Of a stretch of 26,094 nt of DNA, positions 4,716 to 22,699 are shown piece after piece. The notes below the pieces were generated by a model. It was not told where the DNA came from, did not search any database, and saw only the letters and a list, made by a program, of their open reading frames with translations. A program made the position numbers and the translations under genes. The stretch spans positions 1-26,094 of IMG/VR virus record IMGVR_UViG_3300006030_000095. The stretch is one strand, 5' to 3'. The DNA is from a virus. The stretch's first letter is position 1, and each line of letters starts with the position of its first letter.

Positions 4716-4904
4716 TTAATTTTTAGTTATGTTATTATATGTTGCCGTATTCTTTGTTAAAGTTGTATATAGTGTTGAAATGATTGTTGATGAGTATGTA
4801 AGAGCGAGAAGTAGTCCTATTGGCATACCCGCAACAATAAGTCCGTTGTTTTGAACGGTTGTGTAGGTTGCGGTATTTTTAGTTTGTGGTGTCCAGGTTG
4901 CCAT
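4716..4904 (-). CDS. Small protein with KNTATY repeats and a hydrophobic core (62 aa)
   Basis: This 62-residue protein has two copies of the hexapeptide KNTATY (residues 9-14 and 52-57) flanking a hydrophobic segment (about residues 22-46, GLIVAGMPIGLLLALTYSST) long enough to span a membrane. The symmetric layout, with similar Thr/Asn-rich arms on both sides of one hydrophobic stretch, is unusual. A GGAG Shine-Dalgarno-like site precedes the start by about nine bases, and the ATG overlaps the A of the upstream TAA. The hydrophobic segment could be a transmembrane helix or buried virion beta structure. Small genes beside connectors in other phages often encode minor head or tail parts, but no function can be given here. 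Confidence 0.55.
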   Translation of the reverse strand: MATWTPQTKNTATYTTVQNNGLIVAGMPIGLLLALTYSSTIISTLYTTLTKNTATYNNITKN

Positions 4905-5602
4905 TATATATAATCTCCAGTTCTGTGTGCTGGCATTACTGATAATTTAACCGCCTTATTCTTGTCTCCAAAGAAATCGTAAAGCTCTAGTTTTAGGGCC
5001 TCAATTTCACTTCTAATGCGGTCAATCTTTCCAGATGTGTCGTTCACAAACAACCAGTCGTGGGCTGCACCAAGAGAGAGTATTCTGTGAAAGTTTTCTG
5101 CAAAGCCTGGTTCTTGTGTCGTGTCACCAACAACAAATTCGTCAAGCTCTCTTGCGAAGTATAATTTTAATCCTGCGGTTGTGGTTACGCTTGCTGTTGC
5201 GGGTGCTGGTTCAAGCCAAATTGAATTACCAAAAACATAGGCGTATTTTGGCATACCACTTGCTGTTTCTGCGTCTGTTATAGTTCCTTTGATTTGGTCT
5301 CGGTCTACGATTTGTATACGCTTTGAGTTTCCGCCACTATCCTTAACTTCTACGGCGTGTAGCTGGAGAACTCCAGTTGGGAGTGTGTAGTCGTTTTGTC
5401 CGTCTACGAGTGTGGTTGTTGCTATTGGGAGGTCTGTCTGGTTTGAGTCATCAAACTGCCATGCCTTGCTTGCTTTCCAAACCCAAGTTGCCGCCTTGTA
5501 ATACCAGCGGTTCATGTTGCGAGTTAAGTCCGCATTTGAATATGCGGTTGAGTCTGTTCCACAGAGGAAGTGTGTGTCTGATTTAAGGTCGCTATATGTC
5601 AT
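4904..5602 (-). CDS. Probable head-tail connector/adaptor protein
   Basis: This 232-residue protein starts with a helical, Trp-rich region (residues 1-48, RWYYKAATWVWKASKAW), followed by a beta region (VDGQNDYTLP, residues about 67-76) and a C-terminal helical region with alternating charges (residues 180-220). The 'W...W...dg..dY.LP' architecture is common in phage neck or tail-accessory proteins that dock on the portal. It is the first gene after the glycan cassette and is served by its own promoter at 5636-5664, which gives a leader of about 25 bases with no clear Shine-Dalgarno site. The connector role is inferred from layout and gene order; a minor tail protein is the main alternative. 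Confidence 0.6.
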   Translation of the reverse strand: MTYSDLKSDTHFLCGTDSTAYSNADLTRNMNRWYYKAATWVWKASKAWQFDDSNQTDLPIATTTLVDGQNDYTLPTGVLQLHAVEVKDSGGNSKRIQIVDRDQIKGTITDAETASGMPKYAYVFGNSIWLEPAPATASVTTTAGLKLYFARELDEFVVGDTTQEPGFAENFHRILSLGAAHDWLFVNDTSGKIDRIRSEIEALKLELYDFFGDKNKAVKLSVMPAHRTGDYI

Positions 5603-5635
5603 ATCTAGCGGCGTTCAAGACACTCGTTTGTTATA

Positions 5636-5664
5636 ATAATACCAAACTTTCCTGTTTTCGTCAA
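5636..5664 (-). promoter_or_regulatory. Sigma70-like promoter restarting the structural module
   Basis: On the minus strand, TTGACG (5664-5659) and TATTAT (5641-5636) are separated by 17 bases, and TGG before the -10 makes it an extended -10. Each hexamer differs from consensus by one base. It begins directly after the stop codon of the Com-like gene and points at the connector gene starting at 5602. It would let the tail genes be expressed independently of the glycan cassette. Confidence 0.75.
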
Positions 5665-5781
5665 TTAAAAAGAGTTGATGTGCTTACATCTGGGGCACTT
5701 GATTTTAACCTTCCCCTCTCGTGGCCCATCACCCTCAGCGAGTTTCTTGCCACATTTTTTGCATTTTAAATCAACTGGCAT
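5665..5781 (-). CDS. Com-like zinc-ribbon protein (38 aa)
   Basis: This short gene encodes MPVDLKCKKCGKKLAEGDG and continues to a second cysteine pair: C7/C10 and C29/C32 (CPRCKHIN). The pattern CKCGKxLAEG...IKCPRCKxxN is that of the Com family; phage Mu Com is a zinc-binding mRNA-binding protein that activates translation of the mom DNA-modification gene. A good Shine-Dalgarno sequence (GAGG) lies about ten bases before the ATG. The gene overlaps the 3' end of the aminotransferase by 16 bases and closes the glycan cassette. No mom-like gene is visible nearby, so its target here is unknown. Family assignment is confident from the cysteine pattern; the regulatory role is by analogy only. Confidence 0.75.
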   Translation of the reverse strand: MPVDLKCKKCGKKLAEGDGPREGKVKIKCPRCKHINSF

Positions 5782-6665
5782 AGTTTTTCCGCCTCCTCAG
5801 GGCTTATATTAACGGGGAAATAATATCCTTTTGGATAATCTTTTGTTGCCCCACCATACATAGGAAAGGTGGATAGTGGCTTGAACCATTGGCGGACACC
5901 ATACTCAAACAAGTGGTCGTAGTTCTTTTCTGTTGGGAAATCATATACCCACACAACCTCGCTTGGGATTCTTTTTATCTTTTCTGAGTAAATGAGTGCT
6001 ATCTTTTCTCTATTTAAGAGTTCTTTGTTTATTTCCTTTAGGCTCTTGATTGCGAGCTTTGCCTGCGAATCAGTCATGCGATAATTAAAACCAATTTCTT
6101 TATGAAAGTAGTTGTGGTCTTTTCCGAAAGCCATACTTTTAAGGTTGTTTAATCTCTCGGTGAGTTCTGTGTCGTTTGTGGTAATAATTCCACCCTCTTC
6201 CGCGTGAACTATTTTGTTTTTATATAAAGAAAAAACACCAACATCATAAGAGCCCACCTTCTTACCATTCCATTCTGCTCCGTGAGCCTCTGAACAATCT
6301 TCAATCACCCGAAGATTATACTTCTCTGCAATCTCCATTATCTTTCCCATATTACACACCCGCCCGTAAATATGAACCGCCATAATTACTTTTGTTTTTG
6401 GGGTGATGTATTGCTCTATTTTTTCTTCGTCTATATTGAGGTCATCTCTCCAAGGCACAAATACAGGAGTTGCCCCAGTGTATGATACCGCAAAACCACA
6501 CGCTGCCATTGTAAAATCAGGAACGATTACCTCGTCTCCCTTACCAACACCAAGTCCAACAAGTGCAAGGTGTAGTCCCGCAGTCCCAGTATTAACCGAG
6601 ACAGCGTGCTTTGTTCCTATATATTCTGCGAAAAGATTCTCAAGCTCTTTAAAATACCCAACCAT
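5766..6665 (-). CDS. DegT/DnrJ/EryC1/StrS-family sugar aminotransferase
   Basis: This is a PLP-dependent aminotransferase of the type that converts NDP-4-keto-6-deoxy sugars to 4-amino sugars (perosamine-synthase-like). Visible motifs are the cofactor-binding NTGTAGLHLAL (residues 25-35), IEDCSEAHGA (121-130, with D123 expected to hold the pyridine nitrogen), and VFSLYKNKIVHAEEGG, where K151 matches the Schiff-base lysine. The RMTDSQAKL motif typical of the family follows. At 299 residues it is shorter than the usual 360-390: it lacks about 25 N-terminal residues and has a compact C-terminal domain, so activity should be checked. Its start overlaps the end of the dehydratase gene by 17 bases, and the pair is the classic dehydratase-aminotransferase module. 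The amino sugar made is inferred; other 3- or 4-keto substrates are possible. Confidence 0.88.
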   Translation of the reverse strand: MVGYFKELENLFAEYIGTKHAVSVNTGTAGLHLALVGLGVGKGDEVIVPDFTMAACGFAVSYTGATPVFVPWRDDLNIDEEKIEQYITPKTKVIMAVHIYGRVCNMGKIMEIAEKYNLRVIEDCSEAHGAEWNGKKVGSYDVGVFSLYKNKIVHAEEGGIITTNDTELTERLNNLKSMAFGKDHNYFHKEIGFNYRMTDSQAKLAIKSLKEINKELLNREKIALIYSEKIKRIPSEVVWVYDFPTEKNYDHLFEYGVRQWFKPLSTFPMYGGATKDYPKGYYFPVNISPEEAEKLCQLI

Positions 6666-7596
6666 TTTTTTGGTAATCTTTAATCGTTTTTTCTAACGCT
6701 TCTTGAAAAGAGACTTTTGGGCGTACCATAATCGTGCTGTATAGTTTTGTATTATCTGATTGCAGGTGCCAGATTTCCCATGGGCGTACTCTCGCTTCGT
6801 CTACTTCAATAGTAATTTCTTTTCCCATAATCTTGCCAACAAGTTTAGCGATGTCGTATATCTTTATTCCCTCTTCTGAACCCATGTTGTATACTTCTCC
6901 AAATTTACCTCGCTCTAAAAGGTCTACTGCCATACGAACTGCATCCCCCGCGTACTGGAAATCTCTGAATGAATTATTCCCAAGGCGAACAACATTTGAT
7001 TTTGCTACCTGTTGGATGATTTCTGGGATAACGTATGGGTGGGTTTCTCTTTCGCCTAAACAATTGAACTGTCTCATGGCGATAACAGGAGTCCCCGCTT
7101 CCTTGTATCTACATTGTACGAGTGAGTCAATTGCTAATTTTGCTGCCCCGTAAGTAGAGTGTGGAACCGCTGGATATTCTTCGTTTATTTTATGTTCTGG
7201 TGCATCTCCATATATTTCTGCTGAAGACACCTGAAGAATACCCTTAACACCAGCCTCTTGTGCTGCGTTCATAACCAATAACGCACCGCGAGCGTTTATA
7301 TCAAATACGTGGAGTGGTCTTTCAAAAGAAACTGGTATGTATGGTTCTGCTGCGTAATTAAAAACGTAGTCTATCTTATGTTCAAGGAAAATCTTACGAA
7401 GCTGTTCTTCTGAGTGCGTAATATCACACCACATAAACTTTGCCTTTGGATTAACAAATTCCTTTTTCCCAGTTATTAAATTGTCTAGCACGAGCACATT
7501 ACATTGAAAAGAGTTTATCAAATAGTCTACTAGGTGAGAACCCAAGAAACCTGCTCCACCGATAACGCAAACGTTTGATTGTGCTATTTTTCGCAT
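6649..7596 (-). CDS. Extended SDR NDP-sugar dehydratase/epimerase
   Basis: This 315-residue NAD(P)-dependent sugar-nucleotide enzyme has the Rossmann motif GGAGFLGS (residues 13-20), catalytic Y149 and K153 in YGAAK, and SSAEIYG (124-130). A Ser/Thr-x-Glu before the tyrosine loop is typical of 4,6-dehydratases rather than 4-epimerases. The C-terminal RPWEIWHLQSDNTKL resembles the substrate-binding 'RPxEvxxLxxDxsKa' of the GDP-mannose 4,6-dehydratase group. It probably makes the 4-keto-6-deoxy sugar that the overlapping aminotransferase uses. With the phosphomannomutase-like and isomerase-like genes at 19.3-20.7 kb, a GDP- or other NDP-mannose substrate is plausible. UDP-GlcNAc- or dTDP-glucose-type activity cannot be excluded from sequence alone. 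Confidence 0.85.
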   Translation of the reverse strand: MRKIAQSNVCVIGGAGFLGSHLVDYLINSFQCNVLVLDNLITGKKEFVNPKAKFMWCDITHSEEQLRKIFLEHKIDYVFNYAAEPYIPVSFERPLHVFDINARGALLVMNAAQEAGVKGILQVSSAEIYGDAPEHKINEEYPAVPHSTYGAAKLAIDSLVQCRYKEAGTPVIAMRQFNCLGERETHPYVIPEIIQQVAKSNVVRLGNNSFRDFQYAGDAVRMAVDLLERGKFGEVYNMGSEEGIKIYDIAKLVGKIMGKEITIEVDEARVRPWEIWHLQSDNTKLYSTIMVRPKVSFQEALEKTIKDYQKNGWVF

Positions 7597-8510
7597 ATCT
7601 TTTTGTATGTCTTTTTAAGGTTTTTCCACGAATGTTTCGCCCCCCACACCTTTCCTAATCGTGAATATTCTGTTATGTCTTTATCATACCACATATCTAT
7701 GGTTTTTGCAATATCTTCTGGTGTAATAACTGCTGATAAGAAGGGTCTTGCGATAGCTTCTTTTTTGTAACCACTAACGGGAATGAGTAATTCTTTTGGC
7801 AACCAGCTGTTCATTGGAAATCTGTCTGCTGCCATAACTGCCATACCAGAAGCAAAGGCTTCTTGTAGGGGAAGTGATAGACCATTAAACTTCTCTGGGA
7901 AAATAAACACGTCTCCCTCTGACCAAATATCATCAAAGTGCCCTATTCTATATTCAATTCTTGGGTCGTCAATTTGCTTCATCGGGATTTGGCTTCTGAC
8001 GATTAGTTTTATGGGTGACTTTACGTGTTGCATGGCGAGTAGTAGTTCTCTGGTTCCATTTCTACCACCAAGTCCACCATTCCCCGCGTTATGAACAAAG
8101 ACACGAGCCCGTTCTCTTAGTTTCCACTTCACATCAACTGGAATGGGTATGTACTCACTGTTCGGGAAGAATTGTTGGTCTAATTCTGATGGACTAATAA
8201 TAAGGTCTGGTTCGTATGGTAATGGATTTGGTGTGCACTCATACATTGGGATTAAAATAGTTTTTATTCCACGCTCTCTCGCACGCACAATTATTTTCCA
8301 ATCAAAAGCAGACTCAAAAAAGATAAGGGTTGAGCACTGTTCCAAGAGTTCTTCTGTTGATACGTGCTTGTCGTACCACTCATAGTGGTTTTCCCGTGAG
8401 CTATGTGCTCTTATTGACACGAGGTCAATTATTCCATTATCGTAAAATGCCTTAGCTAAATAGCCAAGACCTTGGTCTGTAGCCAAAACAATAGAGCCTA
8501 CTTTTCCCAT
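7584..8510 (-). CDS. GT4-like glycosyltransferase (GT-B fold)
   Basis: This 308-residue retaining-type glycosyltransferase has a C-terminal donor-binding domain with the segment GDVFIFPEKFNGLSLPLQEA followed by FASGMAVMA, which matches the GT4 nucleotide-sugar site (acidic residue, Gly-Leu-Ser-Leu-Pro, then Glu and a small-residue loop). The N-terminal domain (residues 1-130) shows alternating beta strands and helices, and VFVHNAGNGGLGGRNG (about 138-153) is the glycine-rich start of the donor domain. Its start overlaps the GT-D gene by 13 bases, and its end overlaps the dehydratase gene by 13. It probably adds one sugar to a phage-specified glycan. Donor and acceptor are unknown. Confidence 0.83.
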   Translation of the reverse strand: MGKVGSIVLATDQGLGYLAKAFYDNGIIDLVSIRAHSSRENHYEWYDKHVSTEELLEQCSTLIFFESAFDWKIIVRARERGIKTILIPMYECTPNPLPYEPDLIISPSELDQQFFPNSEYIPIPVDVKWKLRERARVFVHNAGNGGLGGRNGTRELLLAMQHVKSPIKLIVRSQIPMKQIDDPRIEYRIGHFDDIWSEGDVFIFPEKFNGLSLPLQEAFASGMAVMAADRFPMNSWLPKELLIPVSGYKKEAIARPFLSAVITPEDIAKTIDMWYDKDITEYSRLGKVWGAKHSWKNLKKTYKKICEK

Positions 8511-9151
8511 AGATTTTTGTCTATGTCCTCTTTAGTTTTTCCCTCTAGGTCGCAACGAGACATATTCCCCACAAACGGGTCCCAGATATGACCAACGTCA
8601 ATAAGCCATCGGTTTCCTGAACCGTGAAATTGAGAAATAAAAGCATTTGCCGCCATGCCACACGAGAATAAATAGACACGATTATCCATCATTAAAAATG
8701 GCGGTGGCGTGTCGAATGCGTTTGATGCTGGAACTTCTATAAACTGAGCGCCAGGAAACTCTTTTGCAACAAACGGCCGAATAGACGCATTTGCAATAAA
8801 GGTAAGCGGCATCTTTTTTAATTGTTCTATAAATGGATACAGCTCACCGCTGGCCACCGCCTCTCCTAAAAACTCGCTGTCGTGCCAATCAACATCTGGG
8901 TACTCATTTTCCATACGAGTTCTGTCTTGTGGTAATACCCTCTGCATACCATAAATAAACGTTGGGTCGTTTTTGTGTTTCATTGAGTCTAGTAATCCAG
9001 CTCGTAACTCTGGAGAATATCTACACCCGTTAGAGTTTCCACCACGTTTCCCCCACATACAATACATTTCCCCGTCCCCATAACGAGCAAAACTAAATGT
9101 TTCCCCACGCTTTAGTTTATCCACATAGTGTTGTAATTTATATGATTTCAT
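8498..9151 (-). CDS. GT-D-fold glycosyltransferase (DUF1792-like)
   Basis: Residues 19-30 read FSFARYGDGEMY, matching the conserved 'R.GDGE' site of the GT-D fold (DUF1792), in which the acidic D-x-E pair (here D26 and E28) coordinates the metal and sugar nucleotide. The C-terminal WLIDVGHIWDPF matches the family's 'DxGhxxD' signature. The founding members extend glycans on streptococcal serine-rich surface adhesins. At 217 residues it is a single compact domain. It sits between a methyltransferase and a GT4-like enzyme in the cassette, with 13-14 base overlaps on both sides. GT-D enzymes are far less common in phages than GT-A or GT-B enzymes. Acceptor and donor are unknown. Confidence 0.75.
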   Translation of the reverse strand: MKSYKLQHYVDKLKRGETFSFARYGDGEMYCMWGKRGGNSNGCRYSPELRAGLLDSMKHKNDPTFIYGMQRVLPQDRTRMENEYPDVDWHDSEFLGEAVASGELYPFIEQLKKMPLTFIANASIRPFVAKEFPGAQFIEVPASNAFDTPPPFLMMDNRVYLFSCGMAANAFISQFHGSGNRWLIDVGHIWDPFVGNMSRCDLEGKTKEDIDKNLWEK

Positions 9152-9611
9152 ATTCCGTTGGGTTTTCGTATTCTAAAATAAGAACCTTCTTTGCAACTCT
9201 CTTTAGCTCTTTTTGCATCTTCTTCCACTCTTCCTCGCCGAGATTGTCTATAACCATCTTTTTAATAGAAACACAGAACGCCCAATCAAACTGCTTTTTT
9301 CCAAACGGGAGACTTTTTAGGTTTCCTTGAATGAAGGTTTTCTTTGGGTATTTTCCTTGTGCCTTTTTTATAAACTCTGGAGAAAAATCAACGCCCGTGT
9401 AGTTTTCAAATTCAGAAGACCATCTCCCGTAACCACAGCCTGCGTCTAAAACCTGCGAGTCTTTTGGTATGTGAGTTTTGAGTAGTTCCTTGTGTGCTTT
9501 ATTTATTACACTCCACCCAGCGTCATGTATAACATACACAGAGAAGTGCTCTTGCACCGCGGTTTTAATTCTTTCTGCCCAGAACTCTAATTTGTCTATA
9601 GGTTTTGACAT
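9138..9611 (-). CDS. Class I SAM-dependent methyltransferase
   Basis: This 157-residue protein has the SAM-binding motif VLDAGCGYG (residues 54-62), an acidic residue at the end of strand two (GVDFS, D75) and the later FDWAFCVS segment (motif IV region). It resembles small Methyltransf_11/25-type enzymes that methylate sugars or other small molecules. The N-terminal 50 residues are helical, as usual for the cap. Within the glycan cassette it most plausibly O- or N-methylates a sugar, as in capped glycan chains, but DNA or protein targets cannot be excluded. Its ends overlap the neighbouring GNAT and GT-D genes by 16 and 14 bases, so the three genes are probably translated as a coupled set. 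Confidence 0.8.
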   Translation of the reverse strand: MSKPIDKLEFWAERIKTAVQEHFSVYVIHDAGWSVINKAHKELLKTHIPKDSQVLDAGCGYGRWSSEFENYTGVDFSPEFIKKAQGKYPKKTFIQGNLKSLPFGKKQFDWAFCVSIKKMVIDNLGEEEWKKMQKELKRVAKKVLILEYENPTEYEII

Positions 9612-9949
9612 AGTTTTTTATATGAAGCAACGCCTAATACCGCATCTCCGCCCGCATATAGATTTGGAACAACCCTCTCCTTGAATCCTATCTTTCTATA
9701 AAACTTTCCCGCGGATACGTTGGAACGAAGCCTAAAAACAAAAACAGAATGATATGGTTCTATGAAGTCTAGCATCTCGGAGACTAATTTTGTTGCGTGT
9801 CCTTTTCCTTTATGCCGAACCTCAATAAAAAGTATCTCTACGTTGTCCCCCGTTCCCAATCTCCACACAATATAACCAAGCGGATTATAAATATAAGAAC
9901 AGTCTGTGTACCCACTTATTCTTTTTAGGAGCTCTTTCTTTGTTCGCAT
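9596..9949 (-). CDS. GNAT-family N-acetyltransferase
   Basis: This 117-residue protein has the acetyl-CoA pyrophosphate-binding loop at VRHKGKGHATKLV (residues 44-56, R-x-x-G-x-G), preceded by strand EILFIEV, and ends with the 'FYRKIGFKE' motif typical of GNAT enzymes (about 87-95). It is shorter than most GNATs, so the N-terminal substrate part is reduced. In the glycan cassette it could acylate the 4-amino group made by the aminotransferase, as the GNAT enzyme WecD does for dTDP-Fuc4N. The start overlaps the upstream glycosyltransferase by 25 bases. Amino-sugar acetylation is inferred from context; a protein or small-molecule acceptor is possible. Confidence 0.82.
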   Translation of the reverse strand: MRTKKELLKRISGYTDCSYIYNPLGYIVWRLGTGDNVEILFIEVRHKGKGHATKLVSEMLDFIEPYHSVFVFRLRSNVSAGKFYRKIGFKERVVPNLYAGGDAVLGVASYKKLCQNL

Positions 9950-10788
9950 GCGTTCTTAATACCATTATACAATCCACGAGCCATTTCGTCAAAAGAATAC
10001 TTCTCCACATGTGTTCTCGCAATAGTCCTGTCGAAATCTTTTCCGCCCCACATTTCTAATATCTTTTCTTTTAAATCTTCGTAGTTATCGTATTGGAAAT
10101 ACGCACCCAGTTCCCGTAGGTAGTCGCTCGCCCCCATATACGGAGAATTTGAAACAAGTGAACGCTTGCCATTGAATAGCCCCTCCATAAGTGTAAGTCC
10201 GCCCGTAGATGCCTCTCTATACCCACAAGTCATAAAGGAGCATTCTGACACCAGTTTCCGAAACTCCTCTTTTGAATAGCCATGTTCTGTGTGCACGTAG
10301 GGGATATTGAGTTCCTCGCAAGCTCTCTTTACCCAACCAAGGTTCTCCTCTGGATAATCCCGCACTGGGTCAAGAACATACCCACCATTCTTGGTGTCGT
10401 GGTCGTATGTGAGAATGCCTGTGTGTACAACAATAGACTGAACATCAAGTAGTTCTTTAAGTCTTTTTTGTTGTCCTGACGATGGCACAAATACAACGTC
10501 TGACTTTTTTAAAACTCCAGCATAAAATGGCCAATTATATCCAGGACTCCTTCCTTCGTGTGCCCACAAATAATAATCCCAGCAATATGTTACTAGTGGT
10601 TTTTTATATATTGCGCTCAGTTGTTCGGCACGTTCACTCATGATAATGGAGGCACAGTATATTGCCTCTGCTTCTTCTGGTGGAACAAAATCAAAGTAAT
10701 TCTTCATAGCCTCGAGTTGTTCGTCCTTATCGCCCTCGGTGAAGTTTTCTACGAAGTGAAGTTTAATTTTTGTATCAACTCTTTGCAT
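9925..10788 (-). CDS. GT-B-type glycosyltransferase
   Basis: This 287-residue protein has a GT-B layout: an N-terminal Rossmann-like part (residues 1-95, including KSDVVFVPSSGQQKRL) and a C-terminal donor-binding part in which YREASTGGLTLMEGLFNGKR (about 192-211) matches the E-x-x-GG-xxxxE donor loop of GT4-like enzymes. The segment at 200-225 continues with SLVSNSPYMGASDYL, as in 'pVvas....g..dyi' of that family. The product ends in a basic tail. The start overlaps the CgeB-like gene by 40 bases, one of the larger overlaps here, so a slightly later start is possible. It probably transfers a hexose-type sugar within the cassette; specificity is unknown. Confidence 0.78.
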   Translation of the reverse strand: MQRVDTKIKLHFVENFTEGDKDEQLEAMKNYFDFVPPEEAEAIYCASIIMSERAEQLSAIYKKPLVTYCWDYYLWAHEGRSPGYNWPFYAGVLKKSDVVFVPSSGQQKRLKELLDVQSIVVHTGILTYDHDTKNGGYVLDPVRDYPEENLGWVKRACEELNIPYVHTEHGYSKEEFRKLVSECSFMTCGYREASTGGLTLMEGLFNGKRSLVSNSPYMGASDYLRELGAYFQYDNYEDLKEKILEMWGGKDFDRTIARTHVEKYSFDEMARGLYNGIKNACEQRKSS

Positions 10789-11642
10789 TTTTTATCCATT
10801 GTGTAATTATCTCGTACCCACTCAAAGTTTTTCTTGACTATCTCCTCCCGCTCTTCTTCGTTCTTTAAATAGTACTTTATCTTTTTTAAGAGGTCCTTGG
10901 TGTCCCCCCTCTTGTAGGTGACTATGTGGGGATATTCTTCTTTTAATCCAGGTACGTCTTGGTGTATCAAAAATCCCCCACGACCAAGGGTTTCAACAAC
11001 CCTATTAGACCAGTAGTGTGGTGAATACACGCTATCCCCAACAACAACGCCAGTTTTTGCATAAACTTTATTTAGGTCTGTCCCGCGAAGTTCGTCTGTA
11101 TTACCGTATCCAAACCATTTAAATTTAAAATTTTCCTTTACTTCTGCGAGCGCGCTTATTCTTTCGGTGTTCGCTGGATTATGAGACCCAACAAAAATAA
11201 CGTCATGTTCCCGTGGTTGTTTGGGGTACAGAAAGCACTCTTCTTTATAGATACCTTGTCTAACAAGCTGGTGATTTATTCCCAGCTTTTCAAATTTTTT
11301 TTGATTTCCACCGTCTGTTGTGAAAACATAGTCTGCTTTAAAAAATCCCTGAATAGAAACCTGTGGCTCGCGCACATAACCAAAATATAAATCAAAAATC
11401 CAACATACGGTTTTCATGCCACGCTCCCTATGTTTTTCTATTGTTTTTATACTTTCTGGTGGTGGGTTCCATTTACTAAAAATAAGTATCTCTGGCTTAG
11501 TCTTGTCTAGTGTGTTATTTAAATCAAACCACCCAATATGTCTTGGGATACGGGTGACCTCGTGGCCAATAGACTCAAAAGACCGAGCAATATATTCTTC
11601 GTCATGGAATTTATGAAAGTTTCCGATAAGACCTATTTTCAT
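10749..11642 (-). CDS. CgeB-like glycosyltransferase (GT-B)
   Basis: This 297-residue protein resembles the CgeB/DUF3880 group, which in Bacillus contributes to spore-coat glycosylation. Features are the N-terminal MKIGLIGNFHKFHDEEYIAR, the central VIFVGSHNPANTERIS (strand and loop opening the second domain, about 149-164) and the C-terminal SPHYWSNRVVETLGRGGFL, which is the typical nucleotide-sugar site 'R.fE.la.G.f.l'. It is followed by a C-terminal helical hairpin. It overlaps the GT2-like gene by four bases (ATGA). In this cassette it is one of five transferases that together could build an oligosaccharide of up to about five sugars. Confidence 0.8.
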   Translation of the reverse strand: MKIGLIGNFHKFHDEEYIARSFESIGHEVTRIPRHIGWFDLNNTLDKTKPEILIFSKWNPPPESIKTIEKHRERGMKTVCWIFDLYFGYVREPQVSIQGFFKADYVFTTDGGNQKKFEKLGINHQLVRQGIYKEECFLYPKQPREHDVIFVGSHNPANTERISALAEVKENFKFKWFGYGNTDELRGTDLNKVYAKTGVVVGDSVYSPHYWSNRVVETLGRGGFLIHQDVPGLKEEYPHIVTYKRGDTKDLLKKIKYYLKNEEEREEIVKKNFEWVRDNYTMDKKCKELIQKLNFTS

Positions 11643-12397
11643 TTTGGTAGTGCTGGTGTTTTTCTTGGCTGTGTTTCTGGAGACTCTCGTAGTTTATTTA
11701 AAAGACCTTGTGTGTCGAGTTGTATCATCTTTAACTCTCTTCCTAAATCATCATAATACGCCCCAGCTTTCCACCTTTTCATTGGGTCATATTTTTTATA
11801 TCTTTCTATTTTTCTTTGCCTGTCTTCTTTCTTCATAAGTCCATAATGAAGGAGGTAGTATGGTGCGTGCCAACCATATTTATAAACTATTGGTGGCCCT
11901 AGACCGCAGTGTACATTTTTCTTTTGAAACTGTAAGCCGTATTCTGGAAGGAACTTATAAAATCGTATGTTCCAAAATCTCTGTATCCCAGCATCGTGTG
12001 CGAAGTGGTGTTCGTCATTATATAAATTAACAACAAGGAAGTTATATCCTATCTCTGTTGTTCTTGCGAGGCGTTCTGCCTCTTCTCTTGTGAATTCTGG
12101 AGCAAACACCTCATCCATATCTAGGGCAATAATCCAGTCTGGGTTTAATTCCCCTGCCTTAGTAAGGAGCTCTGTTTTTATATTTGGTTGGTCAATTCCC
12201 CATTCTCTATTGTCTTCGTACTGCATGAACCCGTACTTCTTTATGAGTTTCTTTTCCTTGAGGGTCGCGTTGTTTGTTACGATAATAACTTCATCGCAAA
12301 GACGCTTGAACTCACGCATGGTTTTATCCATGTATCGAGAGGCTTCGTTCGGACCACAAACTCCTATTCCAACGATTTTAACTGAGCCTTCAGCCAT
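11639..12397 (-). CDS. GT2-like glycosyltransferase (GT-A fold)
   Basis: This 252-residue protein begins KIVGIGVCGPNEASRYMDKT, an unusual variant of the GT2 start, and has DWIIALDMDEVF (residues 87-98) with the metal-binding D93-x-D95 of GT-A enzymes. It is related to the Glyco_tranf_2_4 type of short transferases often found in phages and surface-glycan loci. The central region is rich in His, Trp and Tyr (FAHDAGIQRFWNIRFYKFLP). The last 25 residues are polar and probably disordered. It is the first transferase of the cassette, overlapping a small helical gene by 34 bases. Donor and acceptor are unknown; it might add the first sugar to a virion protein, but nothing in the sequence shows this. 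Confidence 0.82.
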   Translation of the reverse strand: MAEGSVKIVGIGVCGPNEASRYMDKTMREFKRLCDEVIIVTNNATLKEKKLIKKYGFMQYEDNREWGIDQPNIKTELLTKAGELNPDWIIALDMDEVFAPEFTREEAERLARTTEIGYNFLVVNLYNDEHHFAHDAGIQRFWNIRFYKFLPEYGLQFQKKNVHCGLGPPIVYKYGWHAPYYLLHYGLMKKEDRQRKIERYKKYDPMKRWKAGAYYDDLGRELKMIQLDTQGLLNKLRESPETQPRKTPALPK

Positions 12398-12576
12398 ACA
12401 AGTTTTTTATCAATATCTTCGTTTGCGTGTATGCAGGAATCTACTATCTTTTTTGCCTCCGCTGTTTCTGCTCGTTCTGGTTCTTTATTCCACAACATAG
12501 CAACCTCGTTAGTGGCCTTCTTCATTTCCAACTCCTCGATATACTCCTTAATGTGTTTTGTTTTAAACTTGTTCAT
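12364..12576 (-). CDS. Small helical protein, unknown (70 aa)
   Basis: I do not recognise this 70-residue protein. It is highly charged and should be almost wholly alpha-helical (EYIEELEMKKATNEVAMLW and DIDKKLVWLKAQLKSLE), with heptad-like leucines that suggest a helical hairpin or coiled coil. It has one cysteine and no membrane segment. The start overlaps the upstream gene by 14 bases, and the end overlaps the GT2-like gene by 34. It belongs to the cassette by spacing and direction, but a link to glycosylation is not shown. Confidence 0.55.
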   Translation of the reverse strand: MNKFKTKHIKEYIEELEMKKATNEVAMLWNKEPERAETAEAKKIVDSCIHANEDIDKKLVWLKAQLKSLE

Positions 12577-12907
12577 TTTTTAATACTTTTTTAAGCTGTG
12601 CTTTGTTTGGTAATCGCCCCTCTTTGATGGCTTTGTTTATTTTCCTTGAAACAATCTGTTTTATGAGGGTTGTTTTCTTCTTGTCCTCAACAACTCTTTT
12701 TTTACTAAACACCCCATCTTCCTTTAGGGTTTGGAGCTTTCGTTTAAGCTCTGGGTTTGCTGTATCCGATTCGAGAAGTTTGTCTACAATGAATTCTATT
12801 GTCGGACTTGCTGGCACCTCGCGTACTGCGTGTTCCCGTATTTCCCTCGGTATACTCTCTTGTATTTCTCTCAGAACTTTATTTATAGATTCTTGTGTCC
12901 AACTCAT
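12563..12907 (-). CDS. Unknown charged helical protein (114 aa)
   Basis: This 114-residue protein is not recognised. It has an N-terminal helix with alternating charge (INKVLREIQESIPREIREHA), a middle helix (IEFIVDKLLESD) and a strongly basic C-terminal third (KKRVVEDKKKTTLIKQIVSRKINKAIKEGR), which could bind nucleic acid or an acidic partner. No cysteines or membrane segments are present. It overlaps the preceding gene by four bases and the following one by 14. It is the second gene after the terminator-promoter junction that follows the capsid gene, so it may be a capsid-associated minor protein rather than part of sugar synthesis. Confidence 0.55.
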   Translation of the reverse strand: MSWTQESINKVLREIQESIPREIREHAVREVPASPTIEFIVDKLLESDTANPELKRKLQTLKEDGVFSKKRVVEDKKKTTLIKQIVSRKINKAIKEGRLPNKAQLKKVLKNEQV

Positions 12908-13260
12908 CTTAGTTTTGTTATGTCTAATTGGTTCCCGCTTCTGTCCATGTAGTCGTGATTAGGAGGTATTTCTGGGTGTTTCTTTGCCTCCTCTATTTCA
13001 TCTTCCATTCCTTTTAAAAACCTTACTCTCGCTTCTTCTTTTTTTCCTTCCCTCGCGAGCGTCTCTGCTTCCCTTTTTGCTTTTTCCATAATTGTTCCAT
13101 CAGAGGTTCCAATGAGTTTTGGTTTTGGTCTTACTATAAGTCCTTTTGGTGGGTTGGAGTATAGTCCCCACGCATCTCGAGCGTTTGCTGATATAATTGT
13201 TCCGTCAAACCTTTCAAAGAAATACCACTTATTGTTTGCTGGGTGTAATGAGTCAGACAT
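12904..13260 (-). CDS. Unknown first gene of the cassette operon (118 aa)
   Basis: This 118-residue protein has an N-terminal beta-like part (NKWYFFERFDGTIISANARD, residues 9-28) followed by a Pro-rich turn region (YSNPPKGLIVRPKPKLIG), then a long charged helix (about 57-95, EKAKREAETLAREGKKEEAR) and a short polar tail. No known family is recognised. The ATG lies only seven bases after a TATAAT -10 box, so its transcript probably starts at or beside the ATG; I see no Shine-Dalgarno site. It follows the capsid terminator. It could be a minor capsid or head-decoration protein, since genes at this spot in other phages often are, but that is only positional. Confidence 0.6.
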   Translation of the reverse strand: MSDSLHPANNKWYFFERFDGTIISANARDAWGLYSNPPKGLIVRPKPKLIGTSDGTIMEKAKREAETLAREGKKEEARVRFLKGMEDEIEEAKKHPEIPPNHDYMDRSGNQLDITKLR

Positions 13261-13267
13261 TTTACAT

Positions 13268-13295
13268 ATTATACATTATTGTGTAAAAAATACAA
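13268..13295 (-). promoter_or_regulatory. Promoter for the glycan cassette, likely leaderless
   Basis: On the minus strand TTGTAT (13295-13290), a 16-base spacer and a perfect TATAAT (13273-13268) precede the ATG at 13260 by seven bases. The expected start site therefore falls on or next to that ATG. The -35 overlaps the T-run of the terminator after the capsid gene, so termination and restart are fused in one compact junction. The -35 is weak (three of six consensus bases) but matches the style of other promoters in the window. Confidence 0.6.
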
Positions 13296-13350
13296 GTGAT
13301 TGCTTCCAGAATTTGGGGGACTTCTTCTGGTTATCCCCCAAACAATCACT
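13285..13350 (-). terminator. Intrinsic terminator after the capsid gene
   Basis: Read on the minus strand, AGTGATTG TTTGGGGGA (13350-13334) pairs with TCCCCCAAA (13320-13312) and CAATCACT (13302-13295), giving a 9-bp GC-rich inner stem and an 8-bp outer stem separated by a one-sided nine-base bulge. A T6 run (13290-13285) follows. It starts five bases after the capsid stop codon. A short alternative pairing (CCAGAA/TTCTGG) involves the loop and the bulge and would compete with part of this fold. Confidence 0.8.
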
Positions 13351-13355
13351 AAAGA

Positions 13356-14285
13356 TTATGAACCAAGGAATGCTGATGATGCGTTGATAACTACGCCAGC
13401 TGGTTCACGAAGAACCTTAACTCCGTAGAGAATATCAACTACAGCGAGAGTACCGAGGTTTCGAACCTGGTTCTCCATCTGTACACGAATGCGGTTTCCA
13501 CCACGTGTTTGAACTGCGAATCCAAGACAACTCTTGTGTAAGAGGAGGTTTCGGTAAGTCTGTAAACCTGAAACAATGTTTGAGGTTGTGTAAACTGGGA
13601 TTCCGAAGAGAACTCCCTTTGAGTTGAGTGCGTATCCTGAGCCACTGAAGTTACCAGTTCGTACCATTCCTGCTTCGTTTGCAGGACCTACAGAATACTG
13701 TTGGTAGAACTTAGCAACTGCGTGAATCTGATTCCAGTATACGTATGGGTGGAAGAAGAATGCACATTCTGAAAGACGATACTTTGCAGTTTCGAGCTTT
13801 TCAATTGATTGACGAATTTCTGAATCAGTTACCACAGTTGCGGTGTCTCCAACAACGTTAGTTGAAAGAGATGACCACAATGCTGCGATGTCTGCTTCGA
13901 GTGCTTCTGCCAAGAGGTTTCGTGCCTCACGTGCATAAATTTCCATTACACCATATCGAGACGCAATCTGTTGGAGGTCTTTGTCTCCAATAATCCATGC
14001 AACATACTTATGTGTGTCGATAGTAAGAGTTGTGTCTACTGTGTCTGGTGATGCGGTTGTGATTTCTGCTCCTTGTGTTGATTGTGATGAAACTGTCAAT
14101 GCGTTGGTGTAGAAATCTGGAACGTGAAAGATGTCTGCTCCTTCCGTTGCGAAACTTGAGAGGTCAGTACAAAAATTAGCGAGAACTGTGTCGTTGAATG
14201 TTTTTTCATTCACGATACGTGTCCACTCTTCATTGATGACTGCCACCAAATTGGTCCCTGTGAATGGGTCTGATATTACTGCCAT
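13356..14285 (-). CDS. Major capsid protein
   Basis: This 309-residue protein is the probable HK97-fold coat protein. It lies directly downstream of a scaffold-like gene and upstream of a strong terminator. The N-terminal region has conserved-looking helices (residues 10-45, VINEEWTRIVNEKTFNDTVL), followed by the spine-helix region with acidic and Ala-rich character (AREARNLLAEALEADIAALW, about 118-137), and late beta strands (KGVLFGIPVYTTSNI and GTLAVVDILYGVKVLREPAG) typical of the A and P domains. No protease gene is visible next to it, so a T7/P22-like scaffold without proteolysis is likely. A hairpin-forming sequence lies in the 36-base gap before its ATG. Confidence rests on gene order plus fold-like features. 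Confidence 0.85.
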   Translation of the reverse strand: MAVISDPFTGTNLVAVINEEWTRIVNEKTFNDTVLANFCTDLSSFATEGADIFHVPDFYTNALTVSSQSTQGAEITTASPDTVDTTLTIDTHKYVAWIIGDKDLQQIASRYGVMEIYAREARNLLAEALEADIAALWSSLSTNVVGDTATVVTDSEIRQSIEKLETAKYRLSECAFFFHPYVYWNQIHAVAKFYQQYSVGPANEAGMVRTGNFSGSGYALNSKGVLFGIPVYTTSNIVSGLQTYRNLLLHKSCLGFAVQTRGGNRIRVQMENQVRNLGTLAVVDILYGVKVLREPAGVVINASSAFLGS

Positions 14286-19193: not shown

Positions 19194-19307
19194 TTACCGC
19201 GTGGGAATATGGCACATCAGACTTTTATAATCTATTTGTTCCTGGGGTTTTTCTTGCCACAGGAAGAGGAGGACTAAAACAAGGGTGGTGCCAATTATAA
19301 TTTTCAT
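19194..19307 (-). CDS. Small single-pass membrane protein (37 aa)
   Basis: The ATG (19307) overlaps the TGA of the HAD gene in an ATGA junction, the usual mark of coupled translation in this genome. The 37-residue product has one hydrophobic segment (MKIIIGTTLVLLLFLW, residues 1-16) followed by a polar tail (QEKPQEQIDYKSLMCHIPTR). It could be a small inner-membrane protein or a signal-anchored peptide; a short lysis helper such as a spanin-like or holin-like factor is conceivable but not supported by motif. It is the last gene before the TerS control region. Confidence 0.55.
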   Translation of the reverse strand: MKIIIGTTLVLVLLFLWQEKPQEQIDYKSLMCHIPTR

Positions 19308-19945
19308 AATATATTTTTAAGAATAGTTAGGGTTTCTTTTGGGTTCTTTACCTTTATTGTCTTTATAATTCCAATAACACTTTCATCATTCCCGTTTTTA
19401 TATAGGGCATCTCCGAAGTACACACAATCTTTTGGGTTTATTCCATACTCTTTGAGGAATCTTTTTATGTTGCTTCCCTTGTTCTTTCCTTTCTGTGAGT
19501 AGTCTATGTTCGTTGTCCCACCAATTCTCATCTCAACCCCCTTTATCTTAGAGAGTAGCTTACGGCGGATATTACCCTTTGGGTCGAAAGACTTCTTCAG
19601 TTCTTGTGGTGCGTTGTGGCCAATGAGGGAATATGAAATCTGCCCACCCCTATCCTCTACTTGGTCCTGGGTGTACTCAGGGTTGAGTGCTCTTATGTGG
19701 CGATAGATTGCTCTGCGTGTATTAAAAGGAAGTTTGTCCCGCCAAATATATTCTCCATTCCAAAGCTCATTTCCACTAATGGGCATCAAGAACCTGTCCC
19801 CCACTTGCTTTCTCATTTGTGAAAGTGTTGCCCCAGAGATAATCACATGGGGGATTTTGTCTAGAAGCGTAGCCATTTCGGGCGAAATCCTCTGTCGAGA
19901 CTCCGTTATTGTCCCGTCCATATCAAAGAAAAAGTATTTAGCCAT
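19304..19945 (-). CDS. Phosphomannomutase-like HAD-family protein
   Basis: This HAD phosphatase-fold protein (213 residues from the chosen ATG) starts with FFFDMDGT, the DxDGT motif carrying the nucleophile and acid/base aspartates. Further segments track the eukaryotic-type phosphomannomutase family closely: RQRISPEM after the first motif, GGQISYSLIGHNAP, GNIRRK, MRIGGTTNIDY and YFGDALYKNGND (as in PMM 'sIGGqisfDv' and 'fFGDkt.pGGND'). Such enzymes convert mannose-6-phosphate to mannose-1-phosphate. I chose the ATG at 19945, which starts just before the first beta strand and overlaps the upstream gene by eight bases; an ATG at 19969 also exists. It neighbours an isomerase-like/nucleotidyltransferase fusion, which supports mannose activation. 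Plain phosphatase activity is the alternative. Confidence 0.75.
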   Translation of the reverse strand: MAKYFFFDMDGTITESRQRISPEMATLLDKIPHVIISGATLSQMRKQVGDRFLMPISGNELWNGEYIWRDKLPFNTRRAIYRHIRALNPEYTQDQVEDRGGQISYSLIGHNAPQELKKSFDPKGNIRRKLLSKIKGVEMRIGGTTNIDYSQKGKNKGSNIKRFLKEYGINPKDCVYFGDALYKNGNDESVIGIIKTIKVKNPKETLTILKNIL

Positions 19946-20651
19946 AGCGTTGTATATCATTCTCATCATATTCCCCGACCATAACTTCTATTAACTCGCC
20001 CCCAAAACGAGAGAATATCTGGTGTCTTTCTCCCCGCTTGTTTTCCATTCTCCCTGTGAGGGACTGAATATCTCCTTTAATAGGAAACCAATACTCGTCT
20101 CGGTGTTCGTGAGTTTGTAGCGATGTTGAACCGCCTGGGTTAAATACCAACCTCTTAACTGTAATTGTGGGTGAAGTAAACAGTATCTCATAAAATCCCC
20201 AGGGGCGTTCGTATCTCAATCGCTTTTCTTTTAACCAAGATGAGCTTTGTACTTTATCCCCACCAATTCCCCATACTTGTTCTATCCCCAACTCTCGGCA
20301 TACTTCATTCTCTGGGGTGTTGTCTGCTTTCCTATCCCCACCATTGGCAAAAATATCAGGCTTGATAAGTCTTAGGGTTTCGCAAACTGTTGTGTCGGTG
20401 TCTATTGAAATAACAACTTCGTCTACTGCTTTTAGATTTCTTATAATGGTCGCTCGTTCTTCTTCGGACATAAAAGGCACGCTTCCTTTGAGCTTCTGTT
20501 GTTTGTCGTTGTTTACTATCACCACTAATTTATTTCCGAGCCTGCTTGCCTCGTTTATCATATCGAGATGTCCCGAATGTAGTGGGTTAAAGTGTCCACT
20601 TACACAGACAACTGTATGTTTGAATAGTGGTATATGTGAGTTTTCTGCCAT
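19938..20651 (-). CDS. Cytidylyltransferase-like / mannose-isomerase-type cupin fusion
   Basis: Residues 12-140 form a HIGH-type nucleotidyltransferase: GHFNPLHSGHLDMI (H25-x-G-H28), then DIFANGGDR (99-107), and VQSSSWL, a layout like the adenylyltransferase part of HldE, which acts on manno-heptose-1-phosphate. Residues 149-237 form a cupin of the type II mannose-6-phosphate isomerase group (C-terminal half of ManC): RPWGFYEIL, VKRLVFNPGGSTSLQTHEHRDEYW, with Q179, H181, H183 and E186 as candidate metal ligands. In usual ManC proteins the partner domain is a GT-A-like guanylyltransferase, so this pairing is odd. The protein may make mannose-6-phosphate and activate mannose-1-phosphate, with the HAD protein next door between the two steps. 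Nucleotide used and activity are unknown. Confidence 0.82.
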   Translation of the reverse strand: MAENSHIPLFKHTVVCVSGHFNPLHSGHLDMINEASRLGNKLVVIVNNDKQQKLKGSVPFMSEEERATIIRNLKAVDEVVISIDTDTTVCETLRLIKPDIFANGGDRKADNTPENEVCRELGIEQVWGIGGDKVQSSSWLKEKRLRYERPWGFYEILFTSPTITVKRLVFNPGGSTSLQTHEHRDEYWFPIKGDIQSLTGRMENKRGERHQIFSRFGGELIEVMVGEYDENDIQRYG

Positions 20652-21610: not shown

Positions 21611-22699
21611 CTAGCTTTCCATTTTCATTGAATAATACTCGCTTGGTGTAAGCCCACAAAGAAGTGCTTGCATATCTGTTGCGTTTGGATTTTTCTTTGC
21701 TTCTTCTGGTGGTACTCCCTCAATGAACACTCTCCCCGTGGGACATAACATTTTAAGGAAGTACATTTGTGGTTCTCCGAGGTCTGTGTTTATTTCCTTG
21801 CCTTCAATGAGGTAAAGTTCATTGTTCCTGTCGTCTTTGTGGACTAGCGTTGCGTTCTCGTTGATGAGTGCGAGGGGGTTGTATTTAAGTGCGACTGTTC
21901 TCTGGTCTGCTATTTCAATCGCCATTATTTCCTTGAATGTCATCTTTTGAGATACTACTTTTTCCCAAGTTTCTTTCTCAAAATGAACCCCGTCAAGATA
22001 GTAGAATCCAGTTCCGTCTTTCCAAGAAATTGCGGGCTTTTGGTCGTTTGACAACATTCCATTATCCCAAAGAACTTGTGGGCGTTCGCATATAAACACG
22101 ACATTCCCCACGAATATATTTATCGCAAAAGACCCTAAAATCCTTTCAAATAAATCAAGTGTTTCTTCGGTAAACTTCACGCCTATATATTTGGCGTATT
22201 GGTAAAATCCAAGCCACACAATCCACCAAGTAGTGTCATAAAAGTCGTACGAGAGGTTTTCTTTTTCAAGTTGTGAGCCGAGTTGTGAGTAAAGTTGTGA
22301 GTGAAGTTGTGAGCCGAGTTGTGAGTGAAGTTGTGAGCTAAGTTGTGAGTGAAGTTGTGAGCCGAGTTGTGAGTCAAGTTGTGAGTCAAGTTGTGAGATA
22401 AGTTGTGAGTGAAGTTGTGAGTAAAGTTGTGAGCTAAGTTGTGAGTGAAGTTGTGAGTAAAGTTGTGAGTCAAGTTGTGAGCCTTTTCTTTCTATTTTTG
22501 CACCATTTGTTGCAAACTTAATTAAATCAATGGTGTTTTGTATAGACTCTCCAACTATAACAATCTTCTCCTCTCCCCAAATCGTCTTGGAAAGTTCTCG
22601 TAAGTTGCTCCTGTCTATTGGCTCGCTTCCTTTAGCTACATACTTCTCAATATATTCAGGGATTTTTAACTCCTGTTCCTGTGTAAGTTTTTTAATCAT
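21611..22699 (-). CDS. DUF6745-like protein with SQLx tandem repeats
   Basis: This 362-residue protein has three parts. Residues 1-73 are a helical start. Residues 74-145 are 18 tandem copies of the tetrapeptide S-Q-L-x. Residues about 146-362 resemble DUF6745: YDTTWWIVWLGFYQYAKYIG, then the signature NVVFICERPQVLW, PAISWKDGTGFYYLDGVHF, and a late LKMLCPTGRVFIEGVP. The family is widespread in bacteria and phages, often with variable SQL-like repeats, and has no known function. The gene is followed, in the reading direction upstream, by a protein of a type that I associate with DUF6745 genes. The ATG sits one base after that gene's TAA (TAATATG). Function is not known; a repeat-based structural or binding role is possible. 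Confidence 0.8.
   Translation of the reverse strand: MIKKLTQEQELKIPEYIEKYVAKGSEPIDRSNLRELSKTIWGEEKIVIVGESIQNTIDLIKFATNGAKIERKGSQLDSQLYSQLHSQLSSQLYSQLHSQLISQLDSQLDSQLGSQLHSQLSSQLHSQLGSQLHSQLYSQLGSQLEKENLSYDFYDTTWWIVWLGFYQYAKYIGVKFTEETLDLFERILGSFAINIFVGNVVFICERPQVLWDNGMLSNDQKPAISWKDGTGFYYLDGVHFEKETWEKVVSQKMTFKEIMAIEIADQRTVALKYNPLALINENATLVHKDDRNNELYLIEGKEINTDLGEPQMYFLKMLCPTGRVFIEGVPPEEAKKNPNATDMQALLCGLTPSEYYSMKMES
22265..22480 (-). repeat. 12-bp tandem repeat coding for 18 SQLx units
   Basis: Eighteen in-frame copies of a 12-base unit encode S-Q-L-x. TCA CAA CTT/CTC is nearly constant, and in 17 copies the fourth codon has the form NNC: GAC, TAC, CAC, AGC, ATC or GGC (D, Y, H, S, I, G). The last unit has GAA. 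No stop appears in the alternative frame, which reads THNx repeats. Copy number is likely unstable by slippage or recombination. Confidence 0.95.

Follow-up and report, generated by a model that had tools for sequence, protein, structure and literature searches.

What do nine consecutive glycan-enzyme genes do between the major capsid and adaptor genes of an uncultivated phage, and do they belong to this place or are they a passing cargo? We addressed this question in a whole IMG/VR record of 26,094 bases (the window), all recognised genes of which lie on the minus strand. In order of transcription, these are TerS (19010-18477), TerL, portal, scaffold, major capsid protein (MCP), three small genes, the nine enzyme genes, a zinc-ribbon ORF, the adaptor and tail-like genes. 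No sequence match was returned for the core glycosyltransferase against 50,697 phage records, nor for the MCP or, in a nucleotide search, for the 15-kb core against phage records; the only genome match was a 4.9-kb contig in a Spirochaetia MAG, which is too weak for naming a host. Relatives were sought among viral contigs by MCP-, GT-A- and adaptor-anchored scans, yielding ~80 distinct related loci. The adaptor-anchored scan used a 7-sequence alignment, the 22-sequence adaptor alignment being too divergent for scanning.

Enzymes of the block and their putative acceptor

The genes between the MCP and the SU10-type adaptor, together with two genes outside this interval, are as follows.

19938..20651, minus strand: nucleotidyltransferase (RfaE domain II-like)-cupin fusion, probable sugar gene outside the block (domain matches)
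19304..19969, minus strand: HAD-IIB phosphatase adjoining the previous gene (domain matches)
13356..14285, minus strand: MCP (PHROG 267/283 'major head protein', E=2e-14; family alignment)
12904..13260, minus strand: small conserved protein directly after the MCP (homologues in >40 loci; AlphaFold pLDDT 85.8)
12563..12907, minus strand: small conserved protein (homologues after the MCP in most relatives)
12364..12576, minus strand: small conserved protein (homologues in closer relatives)
11639..12397, minus strand: GT-A glycosyltransferase, first enzyme and core gene of the locus (GmaR profile; AlphaFold; invariant DxDE)
10749..11642, minus strand: GT-B glycosyltransferase (Pfam Glyco_trans_1_2, E=7e-16)
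9925..10788, minus strand: GT-B-like (GT4-like) glycosyltransferase (Pfam Glyco_transf_4, E=8e-6, under the cut-off)
9596..9949, minus strand: GNAT acetyltransferase (Pfam, E=3e-8)
9138..9611, minus strand: SAM methyltransferase (Pfam, E=3e-14)
8498..9151, minus strand: GT-D glycosyltransferase, DUF1792-like (family profile against GalT1, E=9e-4; TIGR03728, E=0.003, weak)
7584..8510, minus strand: GT-B glycosyltransferase (PHROG 2170 glycosyltransferase, E=1e-5)
6649..7596, minus strand: nucleotide-sugar SDR dehydratase/epimerase, LegB-like (Pfam Epimerase, E=3e-48 to 1e-47; LegB, E=3e-47)
5766..6665, minus strand: DegT-type aminotransferase, LegC-like, with a short N terminus (Pfam, E=1e-78; LegC, E=5e-59)
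5665..5781, minus strand: 38-aa zinc-ribbon ORF overlapping the aminotransferase end (sequence; weak zinc-ribbon/Com matches)
4904..5602, minus strand: SU10-type adaptor, the connector of the preliminary description (PF24175, E=1e-12)

The nine enzyme genes are consecutive (12397-5766), and the five glycosyltransferases among them (one GT-A, three GT-B-like and one GT-D) are those that had been proposed from the letters of the DNA, as now confirmed by family profiles and by the GT-A model; likewise, Pfam matches bear out the methyltransferase, the GNAT, the dehydratase and the aminotransferase. The enzymes do lie between the MCP and the connector, as described, but they share this interval with the three small genes (13260-12364) and the 38-aa ORF (5781-5665). 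Family support is modest for two of the transferases, 9925 and 7584. The GT-D assignment comes from a family profile that matches GalT1 (4PHR/4PFX) with E=9e-4 over profile positions 16-207. LegB and LegC were the best-scoring models for the dehydratase and the aminotransferase, yet both score far under the models' own cut-offs, and the two proteins are assigned at superfamily level only. The model of the small protein 12904-13260 gave no Foldseek match in the PDB and no known fold.

The block had also been called self-contained. However, two probable sugar-metabolism genes, those of the nucleotidyltransferase-cupin fusion and the HAD phosphatase, lie at 20651-19304, ahead of the terminase genes in transcription order. 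The fusion gene has homologues within the block in loci L011, L030, L050, L056 and L061.

The first enzyme of the block, 11639-12397, was modelled with AlphaFold at a pLDDT of 94.6 and has both a GT-A fold and a DxD motif. Its best Foldseek matches (E=7e-8) are the peptide S-glycosyltransferases SunS and ThuS, and its sequence profile matches GmaR (E=9e-9), a flagellin O-GlcNAc transferase (PMC3150276). The DxDE motif (D93, D95, E96) is invariant among 34 GT-A homologues. Moreover, the aminotransferase retains its PLP lysine, and GGAGFLG and YxxxK can be read from the dehydratase sequence. Catalytic signs are thus intact in the three genes inspected, indicating that these enzymes are not obvious relics.

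Divergence of the GT-A follows that of the MCP, with a Spearman coefficient of 0.77 over 630 pairs, which are not independent of each other and which linkage alone could bring into line; both points limit the argument from tracking. The coefficients with MCP divergence are 0.38 for the portal, 0.37 for the scaffold, -0.13 for the adaptor, and -0.09 to 0.29 for the remaining cassette genes. When the GT-A was used as the anchor, the MCP was found upstream in all newly fetched loci but one, a contig that starts just after the MCP. Three small genes sit between the MCP and the GT-A, and the two of them that were measured track the MCP less (0.56 and 0.40).

Given that the GT-A resembles polypeptide glycosyltransferases, that it tracks the MCP and that the block is without membrane proteins, the acceptor is most likely a virion protein, and the MCP is the most likely one. 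Both the acceptor and the sugar are deduced here from sequence comparison and models. Phages are known to carry genes that remodel the surface polysaccharide of their host, and several enzymes of the block do resemble capsule/LPS biosynthesis proteins, e.g., CapJ and LegB/LegC; serotype conversion or superinfection exclusion by such remodelling is nevertheless improbable. The block shows no membrane transferase, flippase or polymerase, and membrane-like segments are found in none of its proteins in the window and in just one of the 202 proteins from the blocks of relatives, a near absence that argues against the making or export of surface polysaccharide. The core enzyme, furthermore, is polypeptide-glycosyltransferase-like, sits in the structural cluster and tracks the MCP. 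Thus, of the two targets first suggested, decoration of the virion is the better supported, and host surface sugars are less so.

The interval between capsid and adaptor genes in related phages

The block had been described as an inserted, modular cargo with a promoter of its own and a terminator closing it upstream, and related phages with and without it were to be compared. In all 27 MCP-anchored loci that span both flanks, the MCP-to-adaptor interval measures 2.2-9.2 kb and contains glycan genes; even the shortest intervals (L053, L057) hold a glycosyltransferase and a methyltransferase. No near relative without the block was found among these 27 loci, so that absence from the site in close relatives, by which optional cargo (a moron) would be recognised, is not seen. 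Near-empty sites occur in remote relatives only: in L147 the MCP-adaptor gap is 58 nt and transferases stand before TerL and behind the adaptor, and in the database phage MW202577 the site consists of 0.9 kb with two small ORFs only. In L091 and L098, the block lies behind tail-like genes instead. The modular content, on the other hand, holds true, as the enzymes are reshuffled between related loci.

An optional cargo inserted between structural genes would accord with the two near-empty sites, with the displaced block of L091 and L098 and with the reshuffled contents. It is very unlikely all the same, since the site is filled in every one of the 27 nearer loci, the core glycosyltransferase tracks the MCP, and the proposed downstream promoter is not conserved. 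This promoter candidate (5664-5636), described as near-consensus, matches 10 of 12 consensus positions; 23 such sites were found where 20.7 are expected by chance. In 18 of 22 relatives, the gene before the adaptor overlaps it or ends ≤66 nt from it, and a junction this tight indicates that an independent downstream promoter is not a general feature. Of the cassette's own signals, then, an upstream -10 with leaderless spacing is present, and the downstream match does not rise above chance.

An interval that is never empty in the nearer loci has long been a favoured site of glycan genes, and its content is not a recent insertion in this phage. The glycan locus is long established and fixed between the MCP and the adaptor in this uncultivated phage family.

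The RNA element behind the capsid gene

The upstream border of the block had been described as a terminator followed by a promoter (13350-13268). A T-run and a -10 are indeed present, but most of this stretch is a covarying RNA element and not merely a terminator. The features are as follows.

13295..13350, minus strand: interleaved-stem RNA element (P1 13350-13343/13302-13295; stem A 13342-13334/13320-13312; stem B 13330-13325/13311-13306)
13268..13290, minus strand: T-run (13290-13285) and -10 TATAAT (13273-13268), a leaderless-type promoter 7 nt before the AUG at 13260 (sequence)

An outer stem, P1, encloses the arrangement A-B-A'-B', where A pairs with A', and B, which lies in the loop of A, pairs with B'. 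The region 13362-13280 folds with a z of -3.6, and under a fixed scoring the element of the window reaches 55.5, compared with a shuffle maximum of 35.9. With a threshold of 45, the element was called in 24 of 48 non-redundant loci and in 0 of 384 shuffles, and also in 7 of 21 further loci that were fetched by different queries once the pattern was known, giving 31 of 69 loci in total. The 30 loci other than the window share an identical layout with different letters. A scan of ~0.72 Mb returned 22 matches within 200 nt after the MCP and 4 elsewhere; one of these 4 is the displaced element of L006. L030, L048 and L093 are atypical members of the 31.

Several Watson-Crick pair types occur at nearly every position of the element, and both interleaved stems covary. 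Pairing was itself the criterion by which members were chosen, so the evidence that counts most comes from the shuffles, the independent loci, the element's location and a strand test. In this test, GU pairs outnumber AC mismatches (31 vs 7, p=1e-4) when both are equally allowed, indicating that the element acts as sense RNA and speaking against a cruciform at the DNA level, which we disfavour for this reason. Two further candidates were set aside: read-through of the MCP stop codon, because the stop lies anywhere from 2 to 47 nt away from P1, and a ribozyme or riboswitch, judged unlikely because the linkers are short and differ in their letters. The element matched no Rfam family at the gathering threshold, and no report of RNA elements beside phage capsid genes was found in a literature search of incomplete coverage. 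This border RNA is an undescribed element, conserved in shape and not in sequence, and it is the most surprising part of the locus.

Stem A has ~10 bp and stem B ~8 bp, with linkers of 0-3 nt in most cases: 0-2 nt separate A' from B', and 0-3 nt precede P1'. By general RNA geometry, stems with linkers this short cannot all form fully at once, which leaves a bistable element, a partial knot or pairing between molecules as possible structures.

The element and the intrinsic terminator replace one another at this border. Among the 69 loci, 31 have the element alone, 16 a terminator alone and none both (p=2e-5); the other 22 have neither signal by the criteria used, and some of these carry hairpins and T-runs that narrowly miss the criteria. 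On the MCP tree, the two were interchanged at least 8 times. A leaderless-type promoter, defined as a -10 hexamer whose end lies 5-8 nt ahead of the following AUG, accompanies 11 of 16 terminators compared with 4 of 31 elements (p=2e-4), a difference that is only suggestive on phylogenetically independent pairs (median p 0.06). The window is one of four hybrids that have both the element and a leaderless promoter. Shine-Dalgarno sequences are not enriched in the genes of these phages (50 of 441, 49 expected), and about 14 of 23 element loci place the AUG between -2 and +5 nt relative to P1.

In our view, the two types of border share one function, which is to insulate MCP expression from the operon downstream: the RNA would set the expression of the MCP apart from that of the genes behind it, and a terminator with a leaderless promoter would do the same job in other relatives. 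A bistable switch, in which stem A or stem B forms and regulates translation or processing of the downstream mRNA instead of insulating it, is possible, but we lean against it. Covariation of two stems whose linkers are too short for both to form fully would suit such a switch, as would the AUG beside P1 and the lack of Shine-Dalgarno enrichment. Stem A is, however, predicted to be clearly more stable in most members, the element has neither a ligand nor a conserved unpaired core, and its positional swaps with terminators fit insulation as well. Rather doubtful, and put forward tentatively, is the more specific proposal of a new class of phage element that replaces terminator plus leaderless promoter, where processing at the 3' edge or switching between A and B would allow Shine-Dalgarno-free translation from the AUG at its foot.

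That the element is merely an unusual intrinsic terminator is unlikely. The T-run at 13290-13285 follows it in the window, and relatives have terminators at the same place; yet most members are without a T-run and abut the AUG with no promoter between, and the second stem would be superfluous in a terminator. Moreover, an intrinsic terminator is a GC-rich, short-looped hairpin with a U-tract right behind it, and by the test for one all 31 element loci fail; the element has an asymmetric bulge and a long loop, and the T-run of the window starts 4 nt after P1. Having been swapped with terminator plus promoter so many times, the border RNA constitutes a natural experiment on how capsid-gene expression is separated from that of an operon.

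Proposed role and comparison with known systems

Overall, we judge it probable that this is a long-established locus fixed between MCP and adaptor, which most likely serves the cytoplasmic glycosylation of a virion protein, probably the MCP, and whose border RNA separates MCP expression from the downstream genes. Against this reading, the remote relatives L147 and MW202577 are without the block at this site, and the tracking might come from the close linkage of GT-A and MCP; for the RNA, the short linkers, the 22 loci with neither signal, the three atypical members and the merely suggestive pair test for the promoter also count against it. In the proposed pathway, the dehydratase and the aminotransferase would supply an amino-deoxy sugar nucleotide, the GT-A (12397-11639) would most likely place the first sugar on the protein, and the remaining transferases, the methyltransferase and the GNAT would extend and trim the glycan. 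The first enzyme would stay with its capsid and the other enzymes would be swapped between phages, so that glycans would differ among related phages. Phage glycosyltransferases can also modify DNA bases, and the window shows just 26 kb of the genome, but T4-type hypermodification of the phage DNA is extremely improbable, as the window yielded no recognisable base-hydroxymethylating enzyme and the core enzyme resembles protein glycosyltransferases.

To our knowledge, few phages are known to glycosylate their virions with enzymes of their own. An MCP-adjacent locus in a large uncultivated family, with one transferase tracking the capsid and the others turning over, makes both the acceptor and the diversity of the glycans testable.

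In phage T7, a terminator (Tphi) follows the capsid gene. Both systems place an element that separates expression behind this gene, and nearly half of the loci examined here have the interleaved-stem RNA in place of a terminator. Like H-type pseudoknots, this RNA has two interleaved covarying helices, and a loop pairs with a strand 3' of the stem; unlike them, its linkers are too short (L3 median 0 nt for a 10-bp stem).

As for the enzymes, the GT-A shares the glycosyltransferase-domain profile of GmaR (PDB 22ao; E=9e-9) without its TPR and antirepressor parts. The glycocin S-glycosyltransferases SunS and ThuS are its best structural matches, with a TM of only ~0.5 and an identity of 12-16%. 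The protein 8498-9151 matches the profile of the GT-D enzyme GalT1 (DUF1792, 4PHR/4PFX), from which it differs in partners and acceptor. Phage-encoded glycosyltransferases have been proposed or shown to glycosylate the capsid proteins of mycobacteriophages (Freeman et al. 2023, as cited in PMC12691614). Those systems and the present locus have phage-encoded glycosyltransferases in common, and the difference lies in the multi-enzyme locus fixed here beside the MCP, with a transferase that tracks it.

Possible interruptions of the capsid and terminase genes

In six of the related viral loci (L029, L046, L057, L075, L118 and L131), the frame of the major capsid protein (MCP) is broken up, or an ORF of ~150–200 aa precedes it, and in L057 and L131 this ORF is LAGLIDADG-like. 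Together, these features suggest that these capsid genes carry introns with homing endonucleases. The large terminase of L057 (3962-6226) is 754 aa long, with an intein-like insert behind its N-terminal stretch; that of its close relative L053 measures 405 aa.

Translation start signals

The 441 genes annotated in the related loci show no enrichment of Shine-Dalgarno sequences (50 observed against 49 expected), while -10 hexamers often lie directly 5' of the AUG that follows the MCP gene. Both observations hint that the host translates leaderless mRNAs.

Other features of the window and its relatives

In L008, at 5601-6007, a 93-aa virion-like ORF lies immediately behind MCP in place of the usual small genes, and the contig stops too soon afterwards to reveal either loss or displacement of the glycan block. 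A second, high-scoring candidate (61.8) for the interleaved-stem RNA, the border element found after MCP, lies far upstream of MCP in L030, near 3525.

The protein encoded at 21611-22699 of the window contains numerous SQLxSQL repeats, and a similar repeat protein is found at the start of L058. At the block end, a 38-aa zinc-ribbon ORF (window 5665-5781) overlaps the end of the aminotransferase gene and weakly resembles Mu Com (PF10122, E=0.003).
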